DNA from: Nakazawaea peltata
Taxonomy: Eukaryota; Ascomycota; Pichiomycetes; Alaninales; Pachysolenaceae
Assembly (NCBI GenBank): GCA_001599355.1
Contig: BCGQ01000004.1
Span: forward strand, 1,061,249 to 1,125,248
Direction: 5' to 3'
Length of the DNA stretch: 64,000 bases
Shown: one piece after another, positions 15,256 to 63,137 of the stretch
Layout: each line of letters begins with the position of its first letter
Position numbering within the stretch: the stretch's first letter is position 1
Made by a program: the position numbers and the translations under genes
The notes under the pieces: model-generated
What the model was told of the DNA's origin: nothing
The model's input: only the letters and a program-made list of their open reading frames with translations
Databases searched by the model: none

Positions 15256-16149
15256 ATGCAGACAATCATGATGACCGGCCTGAAAATTAGAAAGCAGCAT
15301 TCCGAACGCAAACTTCCACTGATTGTTGACGTTTATTTGGAGCCAGAAACTGGAAAACAGATTTATAAAGTCAAGCGGACTAATGAGAAGTTCCTCAAAG
15401 AAATTCAACCAAACCTTGAAAGCTGGAAGACTAAGCTGATGAGTTCTGGAGATAATTATCTGTGGAGCAAAAAGACTCAGTCTGAGGAAATGAGTTCTTC
15501 CACCGAAGAAGGAGACTCTCTTTGGTCGCATGATATGGAATCGATGTTCATAGAAGCATTGAGGATTATTCCAAAATCTCACCTGGTGAAATTGAAGGTA
15601 AGTGGAAAACCTATGGGAAGAAATGAACTTATTTCTGACTTCCTCTTGGCAACTACAGGTAAATACAGAAGTCGTAGACAAGTCTCATCCCATTTGCAGG
15701 TTCTCAAAAATACCAAGAAGGATAAAGATTTGCTCGATCTAATCAATAATGGTCCTAAGGGTCTGGATCGTTTGGACAAATTCAAAGAATTTTTCAAAAC
15801 CATTAACATCAAGAAGTCTGTTGGAAGCTTCGAAATTATGAGACCTACAGAGCAGTTCAAAGACGAGTCTTTTCCACTGAATAGCACCGCGATGTCTTCA
15901 CCTCTTTCGACATTCAACAGTATGGATTCCAGTCCTTCTGCAGACAACACAGATGGGAATGAGGCGGATACAAGTGACGAAACAATTAACGACACTTTGT
16001 GGACAAATGCCGATTTCGAAGTCAAATTGCCTCATCTGAATCAACCAATGTACGTCTCTGATACCAATGGAAAGACCCCCATTGCACATCCAATCACTTG
16101 GAATCAAAATCATAATACTCAATTTTCATCAAACACTCCATTTTTTTAA
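15256..16149 (+). CDS. TEC1: TEA/ATTS-domain transcription factor, Tec1-like
   Basis: 297 aa from the ATG at 15256 (an upstream TTG is in frame but not used). A TEA domain occupies about residues 88-160. It runs from L-W-S-H-D-M-E through the G-R-N-E-L-I-S-D-F helix to the recognition helix R-S-R-R-Q-V-S-S-H-L-Q-V-L, which matches the diagnostic R-K-Q-V-S-S-H-I-Q-V-L of the family. The rest is low complexity. Tec1 acts with Ste12 on filamentation genes in S. cerevisiae and controls hyphae and biofilm in Candida. The product is shorter than S. cerevisiae Tec1 (486 aa). The unusually long upstream region suits a highly regulated gene. Confidence 0.85.
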   Translation: MQTIMMTGLKIRKQHSERKLPLIVDVYLEPETGKQIYKVKRTNEKFLKEIQPNLESWKTKLMSSGDNYLWSKKTQSEEMSSSTEEGDSLWSHDMESMFIEALRIIPKSHLVKLKVSGKPMGRNELISDFLLATTGKYRSRRQVSSHLQVLKNTKKDKDLLDLINNGPKGLDRLDKFKEFFKTINIKKSVGSFEIMRPTEQFKDESFPLNSTAMSSPLSTFNSMDSSPSADNTDGNEADTSDETINDTLWTNADFEVKLPHLNQPMYVSDTNGKTPIAHPITWNQNHNTQFSSNTPFF

Positions 16150-16653
16150 AACCAGTGCAGCATAGATCTCACGCCCCTCGCTTCAATTGATTTTCTCTTT
16201 CAGTTCTTGATTTTAAACAAGTCTTCACACCTTGTCTTTTACTTTTTATTTATTGATATTGAATTGTATTTTATCTTTAACAGCTCATTTGTATTCTGGA
16301 ATATAGCTTATTGAATTTGAATAGACTGAGAAGATGTAAATCAGACCATAGTAATTCCACAACTCACATATCGTTTTCATTCTATACGTATTTATACCCC
16401 AGGTCTGCATATGACTTGGATATGATAAACACTGATACCCCCAACACTAGAACTAGCATCCCCCAAAGAAGGGGATATTTAGGTCGTGTACATATATCAA
16501 TATTCCATTTTAGGAAATTGTATTCCGAATCTGTAGGAACTGCTCGAGCCCTCAGCTATAAAGAAAAAGACAGCAGAAAGAGGCGGTAAGAGGCCCGATA
16601 AGGCGTCATAAATTGAAGGTGAATATAACAATTGGAGTTGAAAAGATCAAAAT
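16150..16653. other. intergenic TEC1-like / VPS29
   Basis: AT-rich 0.5 kb. An open stretch near 16311-16589 lacks an early ATG and any family signal. Nothing else seen. Confidence 0.6.
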
Positions 16654-60452: not shown

Positions 60453-60536
60453 CGTTTTTACATCTCTACATCCCTATACCCTACATCACCTCAATTTAAT
60501 AATCTTATTCGTTTTTATGTATTCATGATTCTATGA

Positions 60537-63137
60537 TTAACCTCTGATAACTAAATCATCAGGGATACCTTCGTATTCTCCGTAGCCCAATGCCAAGTTA
60601 ATGTTTTGCAAACATTGAGTGGCAGCTCCCTTCAACAAATTGTCGATGGTGGCAACAACAACGACTCTGTCTTGCTTGGCACTAACGGCAAATCCACCAA
60701 TGACGACACCATGCTTTCCGCTGATATCTCTAACTAAAGGAACCTCACCACCAACAGTGATCAATTGCTCACCTTGGTATCTATCTTGGTACAAGTTTCT
60801 AATCTCTCTAGAGCTAATAGCCTTGTTCAATGGGATCGAGATGGTATGGGAAATACCTTGGAACCATTGCGCAACATGAGGAGTGAAGAAAACATCCAAT
60901 CCCAATTGCAGAGAAATCTCACGTTCATGGATGTGATCAGTCAAAGAGTATGGGATCAAGTTGTCTCTCAAGAAGTTGATATCGTTCTTAGGAGAAGGTT
61001 TAGTTCCAGCACCAGAATAACCACTGACACCAAAGATAGATGGGTTACCGGAAATGTATTCCTTCAATGGGGCAATGGCCAACTGCAGCAGAGTGGCGTA
61101 ACAACCTGGATTAGAAATCTTCTTAGCATTAGCAATACCTTCTCTGGAGTTCAACTCTGGCAAACCATATACCCACTCACCAGACTCATCGAATCTGTAA
61201 TCGGCAGACAAGTCGATGATCTTGGAGTTACCGGAACAAGACTCAATAGCATCAACGAATGGCTTACAGACACCGTTAGGTAACAGCATTACCCACATGT
61301 CGACCTCACCGTTGTTCTCCAACTTCTTGATGTCTTCAACTTGCAAGTTCTCGTAAGTGATGTTGGCCTTGTTGTATCCTTGCAATTTAGTACCGTTCAA
61401 CTCTCTGGAAGAGACGTGAGTCAATTCCAAGAATGGGTGCTTGTCGATCATCGAGATCAAGTTTTGACCAGTGTAACCTCTGGCACCGATCAAGGCAACC
61501 TTGGCCTTCTTTTGGTTAGAACCTTCACGGATAGGAGGGTTTGGGTTACTGGTGTTAGCTCTAGCACTTGACGTGGAGAAAGCTCTGATACCTCTCTTGA
61601 GCAATCCGTTGGAACGAGCAGCAGAGTGGAAGCCACGGACTTGCTCAGATGAGCTGAAGACAGAAGATTCAACTGGCTTGATGTGAGAGACCTTCTTGTT
61701 GAACAGCTCAATCAAAGAGTTGACTTCGGCTGGTTCACTGACACCATACCAGAACAAGATATGACCGTTCTTAGAGAAGGAACCATCAGCCTTGCTGAAG
61801 AACCAAGCAGTGTTTGGATCATTCTCTCTAACAGACCATTGCAAGACTGGGTAGTCCTTCTTGATAGCGTTGAAAATGTTATCAACAACGTTGTTCAACC
61901 AACCGTTCTTGGAGGCTAACAACTTGTCCAACTTAGGAATTGGGTCGTCCTTTCTAACGATGGCCAAAACTTCCAATGGTTCATCACCGTAAGCCTTGAA
62001 CTCGGCACTCTCCAACTCTCTTAAGTAAGAAGCAACACTGATCTTACCAGAAGAGATCTCTTGGTCTCTCAAGAGAGCGGCTCTCAATAAATCTGGTTGT
62101 TGGAACTCCTCCAAAGAAGATCTGGTCAACAATCTGTAACCTCTTCTGATCAAGGTACCAGCTCCGGAATCGGTGAATAATTCCTTTTGCAAGTCATCAA
62201 CATCAATGATAGCAACAGAAGAAGATCTAGGCAAGTGGATCAATAAGTCTCTGATTTCCTTGATCTTCAATTTAGTACCGTATTTGACCCAACTTTCCTT
62301 CATCAAGTCGTCATACTCCTCATCTAAGTTGATAGTAGAAACCTTCTCACCGGTGTTACCGTTAATGATACCTCCCTTCTCGTTCAAGTAGACAATCTTC
62401 AAAGGTTCGAAGACTCTAGCCAATTCACCAGCAGCAACGTCGGCATTGACATTCAAGATTTGACCAGATGGAGTCTCAGCCAAAGAGGTCAAAATAGGTA
62501 AAGCACCCAGAGCAATAGCAGCTTCAACTGGAGCCTTGTTAACAGAGGTGATGTTTCCTACCAACTTGTACTTATCCTTGTCGAGGTAGTCGGCACTGAA
62601 GACACCAGCAGTCACAGGTCTAGCACGGACACCCATCTTCTCCAAAGCAGTGACCAACTTCAAGTTCTGCTCCAAGAAACACTTTCTAACCACAGACATG
62701 GTCTTCTCGTCAGTGATTCTGATACCATCTGAGTAATCTGGCTCGACACCTTCAGCCTCCAATAACTCGTTAATTTGAGGTCCGGTACCGTGTAAAACAA
62801 TTGGATACAAACCAACGTGGTACAAAAAGGCCAAACAAGAAGCCAACTCAGGTAATTGCTGGGTGATAATGGCACCACCAACCTTAATAACAGCAAACTG
62901 TTGTTGGGAAACAGAAGTGAAGTACTTCAAGTATTGTTCAACCTCTCTCTTGGATCCAATGTTGTTCAACAATTGAACAACAGTAGATCTAGTAGAGTAG
63001 AGTCTGATGTATTGCAGTTGAGATGGGGCCGCAGTCTTAGTCGAAACACCAGCAACCAAAGAGCTGGTCTGGGCCGATTTAAGGGCTTGTTGTCTCAATC
63101 TTCTCGAAACAGCAGATCTAGCACAGTTTCTCAACAT
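60537..63137 (-). CDS. ARG5,6: acetylglutamate kinase / N-acetyl-gamma-glutamyl-phosphate reductase
   Basis: 866 aa bifunctional precursor (S. cerevisiae 863). The order is: an Arg/Ser-rich mitochondrial presequence; an amino-acid kinase domain ([19 protein letters not shown]); a regulatory acetyltransferase-like domain (to about 500); a linker with a second presequence-like stretch ([13 protein letters not shown], about 515-530); and the reductase with G-A-R-G-Y-T-G and catalytic Cys in S-N-P-G-C-Y-A-T. In the matrix the precursor is split into two enzymes for steps 2 and 3 of arginine synthesis. A consensus Gcn4 site lies upstream. Confidence 0.97.

Follow-up and report, generated by a model that had tools for sequence, protein, structure and literature searches.

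The stretch of DNA considered here (64,000 nucleotides of contig BCGQ01000004.1, positions 1,061,249 to 1,125,248; "the window" below always means this whole stretch) very probably comes from the nuclear genome of a budding yeast in which the codon CUG is read as alanine (NCBI translation table 26). This reading was proposed in an original prediction made from the letters of the sequence, and it is supported by two homology tests, an inference of codon meaning from alignments and a sum of Pfam profile scores, in both of which alanine is the best residue for CTG. On these comparisons, leucine is excluded as the meaning of CTG and serine is disfavored. The finding is a correct recognition of a published code, which is already known and not new. 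Its practical value is correct annotation, and it illustrates that a reassigned sense codon can be inferred from as little as 64 kb of raw sequence.

CTG codons and the residues that face them

The window has a GC (guanine plus cytosine) content of 39.7% and contains 37 open reading frames (ORFs) of at least 120 amino acids, of which 26 were kept as judged real and 11 were dropped as judged antisense or spurious. In the 26 ORFs, to which all codon counts refer, CTG makes up 223 of 13,138 codons (17.0 per 1000), such that about 1.7% of codons would be mistranslated under the standard table. At least one CTG is present in 25 of the ORFs; the claim that every protein in the window is mis-translated was thus too broad, as the RPL19-like ORF contains none. 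If CTG means alanine, it accounts for 223 of 905 alanine codons, the others being GCT (381), GCC (172), GCA (93), and GCG (36). All ten triplets that the original prediction named are indeed CTG on the strand given. Nine match the reading frame of an ORF of the gene in question, and the tenth (32266-32268, minus strand) is located in the short first exon of an NpwBP-domain gene, for which the label "Wbp11-like" is reasonable. As a separate observation, the codon CTA is hardly used (24 times among the 13,138 codons), and a rarity of CTA is likewise reported for the CUG-Ser clades in a passage of PMC6701816.

Ten queries from nine genes were aligned to the sequences of homologues with solved structures, with CTG masked as X, so that the search had no lean toward any residue. 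From 41 alignments, 22 chains were kept and 19 were dropped, most of which were judged to be the same protein as a kept chain, or a construct or piece of one (PGI1 u6478; four VPS29 chains; ERG20 u16733 and u16732; ARG5,6 u58663; three RBBP4 chains; PRP3 u75963 and u75964; ArgC u26935 and u24459; FMO u17810; and three bS16m chains). Three of the dropped chains are near relatives, and by eye their residues facing CTG are R, W, A, and K (u6478), C, S, I, and Q (u24459), and A, A, A, and V (u26935). Residue 936 of RRP12 (by eye D and A) was left out of the count, as were a PRP3 stretch that scores below 0 bits (u48196, two CTGs) and several CTG-free blocks. Query letters were checked by script against the window, and target lengths against the alignment coordinates. 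The 22 chains cover 54 of the 71 CTGs in the ten queries and give 103 cells, each cell being one residue of one chain that faces a CTG.

Alanine occupies 32 of the 103 cells, followed by serine (10), lysine (7), glutamine, threonine, glutamate, and valine (6 each), proline (5), arginine, leucine, and asparagine (4 each), glycine (3), isoleucine, aspartate, and cysteine (2 each), and phenylalanine, tryptophan, histidine, and methionine (1 each). The same chains served as controls at the other codons of the window. Alanine codons (555 cells) face 46% alanine, 9% serine, 4% leucine, 4% threonine, and 7% valine; leucine codons other than CTG face leucine in 60% of cells (505 of 848); and serine codons face serine in 37% (201 of 549) and alanine in 11% (59 of 549). 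With 31% alanine, 10% serine, and 4% leucine, the cells facing CTG show the pattern of alanine codons, at somewhat less conserved places. Leucine faces CTG in 4 of 103 cells vs. 505 of 848 at other leucine codons (Fisher p 1e-30), and serine in 10 of 103 vs. 201 of 549 at serine codons (Fisher p 1e-8), though both values overstate certainty because cells from related chains are non-independent. Six CTG columns agree fully among at least two chains, four of them on alanine, one on serine, one on arginine, and none on leucine; at other leucine codons, 114 of 129 fully agreeing columns are leucine.

The lower share of alanine at CTG than at GCN codons would be expected if CTG were kept off critical positions, as under ambiguous decoding, in which competing or mischarged tRNAs would insert mostly alanine together with a share of leucine or serine. 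Ambiguous decoding of CUG exists in Ascoidea asiatica, according to passages of PMC8629427 and PMC8645108. However, a codon that did not spread until it had been reassigned should also be weakly conserved, and alignments are unable to measure mixing. In addition, a value of 10% leucine in Pachysolen is called mistaken in a passage of PMC8645108, which gives more than 99% alanine instead. Ambiguous decoding has only a slim chance of being correct.

Individual CTGs had been predicted to lie on conserved alanines. This holds for residues 126 and 143 of VPS29 (A in one chain), 438 of PGI1 (A, A, A, A), 209 of ERG20 (A, A, A), and 79 of bS16m (A, A), while residue 198 of ERG20 faces A, A, and S in the counted chains. 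On the other hand, residues 305 (A, A, F, W) and 450 (A, T, K, K) of PGI1 face no conserved alanine across the counted chains. The site in the HSF domain, described as alanine or serine, was checked by domain score only, which ties the two residues (99.8 for A, 100.0 for S). The statement that no CTG falls on an invariant leucine is true of the six fully agreeing columns, but residue 72 of VPS29 faces leucine (one chain) and two sites in a protein kinase score better as leucine.

Codon inference, profile scores, and rival readings

For an inference blind to the genetic code, every codon with at least 5 positions was scored against the 20 residues using BLOSUM62, with one vote per position. With the 22 chains, 54 of 58 codons are assigned their standard residue, and CTG is assigned alanine. 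Apart from CTG, the misses are CGC (K by 1.0, 5 positions), ATA (V by 0.7), and AGC (N by 0.1). The scores for CTG are 18.1 for alanine, 7.8 for serine, -5.5 for threonine, and -36.3 for leucine, and alanine is again called at local identities of at least 0.4 and at least 0.5 (16.4 and 16.0, vs. 6.0 and 6.2 for serine). Across these three conservation filters, the standard residue is returned for 54 of 58, 52 of 55, and 48 of 50 codons, and CTG is a miss each time. A first count with 16 chains gave 52 positions and placed alanine over serine by 15.8; with six more chains and some omitted blocks, there are 54 positions and the difference is 10.3.

Twenty ORFs, as well as three further gene products (one as letters), were scanned with Pfam under tables 26, 1, and 12; the MFS, zinc-finger, ATP4-like, 45337-46089, and RPL19-like ORFs lie outside these scans. 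Scores were summed over 33 chosen domains, with overlapping families represented by a single one in each stretch. With CTG as alanine, the sum is 79.5 bits above that for leucine and 12.9 bits above that for serine. Alanine exceeds leucine by at least 1 bit in 22 of the 33 domains, and 7 domains shift by at most 0.4 bits. Alanine exceeds serine in nine domains, which are PRP3, polyprenyl_synt, Pkinase, PGI, S16, WD40, RRP12_HEAT, SADH_C, and Cpn10. Among the 20 ORFs scanned, ORF 55037-57289 matched no Pfam family.

A further test used no homologues and compared the composition of residues within five codons of all 223 CTGs, leaving out one protein at a time. In calibration, 11 of the 20 residues rank first for themselves, including alanine, serine, and leucine. 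For CTG, the test places alanine above leucine by 14.7, and it is at most evidence against leucine; it is not counted as support for alanine. The density of CTG per gene correlates with the content of proline, serine, and asparagine (p 0.009, 0.032, and 0.035; 26 genes), and its correlation with leucine content is negative and non-significant (p 0.074).

Several results weigh against alanine, and some of them favor leucine. Leucine scores above alanine in the Pkinase, RanBP1, and CBF domains. The same is true of overlapping families outside the sum, namely WD40_Prp19 (93.4 vs. 77.2), PK_Tyr_Ser-Thr (88.2 vs. 84.0), and five of the smaller profiles for methyltransferases (margins of 0.4 to 1.2 bits). 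The Pkinase exception is due at least in part to two CTGs in the catalytic domain, which are worth 3.6 and 4.0 bits for leucine in the generic kinase profile. Together with residue 72 of VPS29, these are the points for the standard code, under which the alanine columns would have arisen by chance. Against them stand the 4 leucines among 103 cells, the 79.5 bits of the Pfam sum, and a bootstrap over positions in which alanine is at or below leucine in 0 of 10,000 replicates at every filter. The standard code has next to no chance of applying here and is taken as refuted by the present data.

Other results favor serine, the meaning expected if the host came from Serinales or Ascoideales, the CUG-Ser clades. 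Serine ranks second at each of the three filters of the blind inference, where the bootstrap has alanine at or below serine in 533, 169, and 180 of 10,000 replicates (533 with all 54 positions). Four of the 33 domains prefer serine to alanine by at least 1 bit (FMO, RGS, RRP12_N, and CASP_C), and serine is the better fit in the FMO-like ORF. In the neighbor test, the top residues for CTG are V, T, E, S, and P, with alanine below serine by 6.7. However, serine is scarce at CTG relative to serine codons, and alanine is frequent (32 of 103 cells vs. 59 of 549). A resampling control drew 49 serine-codon positions 5000 times from the first 16 chains and called serine every time; 5000 draws of leucine-codon positions likewise all gave leucine, and 5000 of alanine-codon positions all gave alanine. 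The Pfam sum likewise favors alanine. Serine is a most improbable meaning of CTG in this host.

A last point against alanine is that no tRNA with a CAG anticodon was found in the window, where three ARAGORN runs and Rfam each returned only tRNA-Gln(TTG).

Genes and other features of the window

Features of the window, ordered by coordinate. Pfam scores are in bits with CTG read as alanine/serine/leucine.
Feature	Coordinates	Strand	CTG codons	Pfam scores (A/S/L)	Remarks
FMO-like ORF	2882..4423	-	9		Ser better than Ala
VPS29 ORF	16654..17502	+	10		CTGs at 17029 and 17080 face Ala; residue 72 faces Leu
HSF-domain ORF	18003..19943	-	22	HSF 99.8/100.0/97.2	Named CTG at 19518-19520; Ala and Ser tie
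PRP3 ORF	29053..30447	+	12	PRP3 217.3/215.4/208.0	
HSP10 (Cpn10) reading frame	30497..30859	-	1	Cpn10 91.6/88.9/88.3	CTG in E-I-L-x-K-I, best as Ala; bounds run from stop to stop, start undefined; frame missing from first ORF list
NpwBP-domain (Wbp11-like) gene	31800..32301	-			Exon 1 (ATG 32301) carries CTG 32266-32268
ERG20 (farnesyl diphosphate synthase) ORF	34981..36036	+	3	polyprenyl_synt 271.1/267.5/264.0	Faces A,A,S at residue 198 and A,A,A at residue 209
Protein-kinase ORF	36996..39395	+	14		Two catalytic-domain CTGs better as Leu in generic Pkinase
PGI1 ORF	46984..48633	+	4	PGI 817.1/814.9/809.8	Residue 438 (CTG 48295) faces Ala in 4/4 counted chains
bS16m ORF	48860..49234	+	2	S16 87.0/83.2/80.6	CTG 49094 in G-x-Q-P-T, Ala in 2/2 counted chains
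RBBP4/MSI1-like WD40 ORF	49319..50524	-	8	WD40 110.1/108.2/99.0, but WD40_Prp19 77.2/75.6/93.4	
RRP12 ORF	50998..54564	+	16	RRP12_HEAT 317.2/314.8/310.2; RRP12_N 90.6/92.5/91.3	
tRNA-Gln(TTG)	54748..54819	-			Sole tRNA gene found in window
RanBP1-domain ORF	58251..59366	+	23	RanBP1 98.3/97.8/99.9	CTGs mostly within hydrophilic N-terminal half; Leu slightly ahead, against Ala
ARG5,6 ORF	60537..63137	-	7	SADH_C 145.6/144.5/139.7; SADH 100.1/99.2/95.2	Includes CTG-CTG in N-P-G-C-Y-A-T-x-x-Q-L

The NpwBP-domain gene has a predicted intron of 49 bases (32213-32261) with a GTATGT donor, a TACTAAC branch site, and an AG acceptor. Its domain corresponds to the Pfam family "mRNA biogenesis factor," and the CTGs of the gene all lie outside the matched domain. 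In VPS29, 12-base and 24-base tandem repeats at 17239-17297 carry CTG in their units and encode repeated x-D-S-N within an acidic insert.

Between the zinc-finger gene and the RPL19-like exon lies a region of about 3.8 kb (24480-28250) with no ATG-started ORF longer than 107 amino acids, which is perhaps a long regulatory region. The bin at 24001-28000 has the lowest GC content (35.5%) among the sixteen 4-kb bins of the window. A lysine-rich ORF of 107 amino acids with two CTGs is located at 26763-27086 on the minus strand, and it presumably resembles the small yeast UPF0642/YBL028C family. The ORF at 28340-28738, which we take to be RPL19-like, seems to begin inside the protein; therefore, an upstream exon and an intron are likely.

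Decoding, host, and comparison with known codes

Alanyl-tRNA synthetase recognizes the G3-U70 pair of its tRNA and not the anticodon. As the literature on this code suggests, the ancestral tRNA-Leu(CAG) would have been lost, and CUG would now be read by a tRNA-Ala that acquired a CAG anticodon by mutation and is charged by this synthetase.

The host most likely belongs to the order Alaninales (Pachysolen, Nakazawaea, or Peterozyma), as judged from the published distribution of the code and not from a tree, which bears out the earlier placement among the CUG-Ala yeasts. The three genera form part of the family Pachysolenaceae within this order (NCBI taxonomy). Passages of PMC5951914 assign the CUG-Ala code to all three and describe codes checked by liquid chromatography-tandem mass spectrometry in 18 species chosen from key points of the yeast phylogeny. 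Pachysolen and Nakazawaea are also given as alanine readers in a passage of PMC8645108, and the distribution is agreed upon in passages of PMC11540330, PMC6692504, PMC8629427, and PMC8645108, the first of which credits the code to two 2016 papers. Dissent on the distribution comes from a passage of PMC5499181, in which Ascoidea rubescens is listed as an alanine reader, citing Riley 2016.

The latter listing, along with a placement in Alaninales that is based on the code, would be consistent with an independent CUG-to-alanine reassignment in a yeast outside this order. However, passages of PMC5951914 infer a single leucine-to-alanine change and report that mass spectrometry detected serine in A. 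rubescens. In addition, a published Codetta survey of 462 species found 453 that match known clades and nine without a residue. An independent origin is extremely unlikely. The broader case, in which a host outside Alaninales or on its deepest branch reassigned CUG to alanine on its own or still admits a small share of another residue, is very unlikely as well.

Like the CUG-Ala code of Alaninales, the code of the window gives an alanine profile at CTG sites, and 54 of the 57 other codons with enough sites keep their standard meaning, the remaining three missing it by at most 1.0 bit. No difference from the Alaninales code was seen in the codon-residue profile of the window. The CUG-Ser1 (Serinales) and CUG-Ser2 (Ascoideales) codes reassign the same codon and share with the window a low number of CTGs on conserved leucines. 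Unlike in these two codes, the CTG profile of the window is that of alanine codons, not of serine codons.

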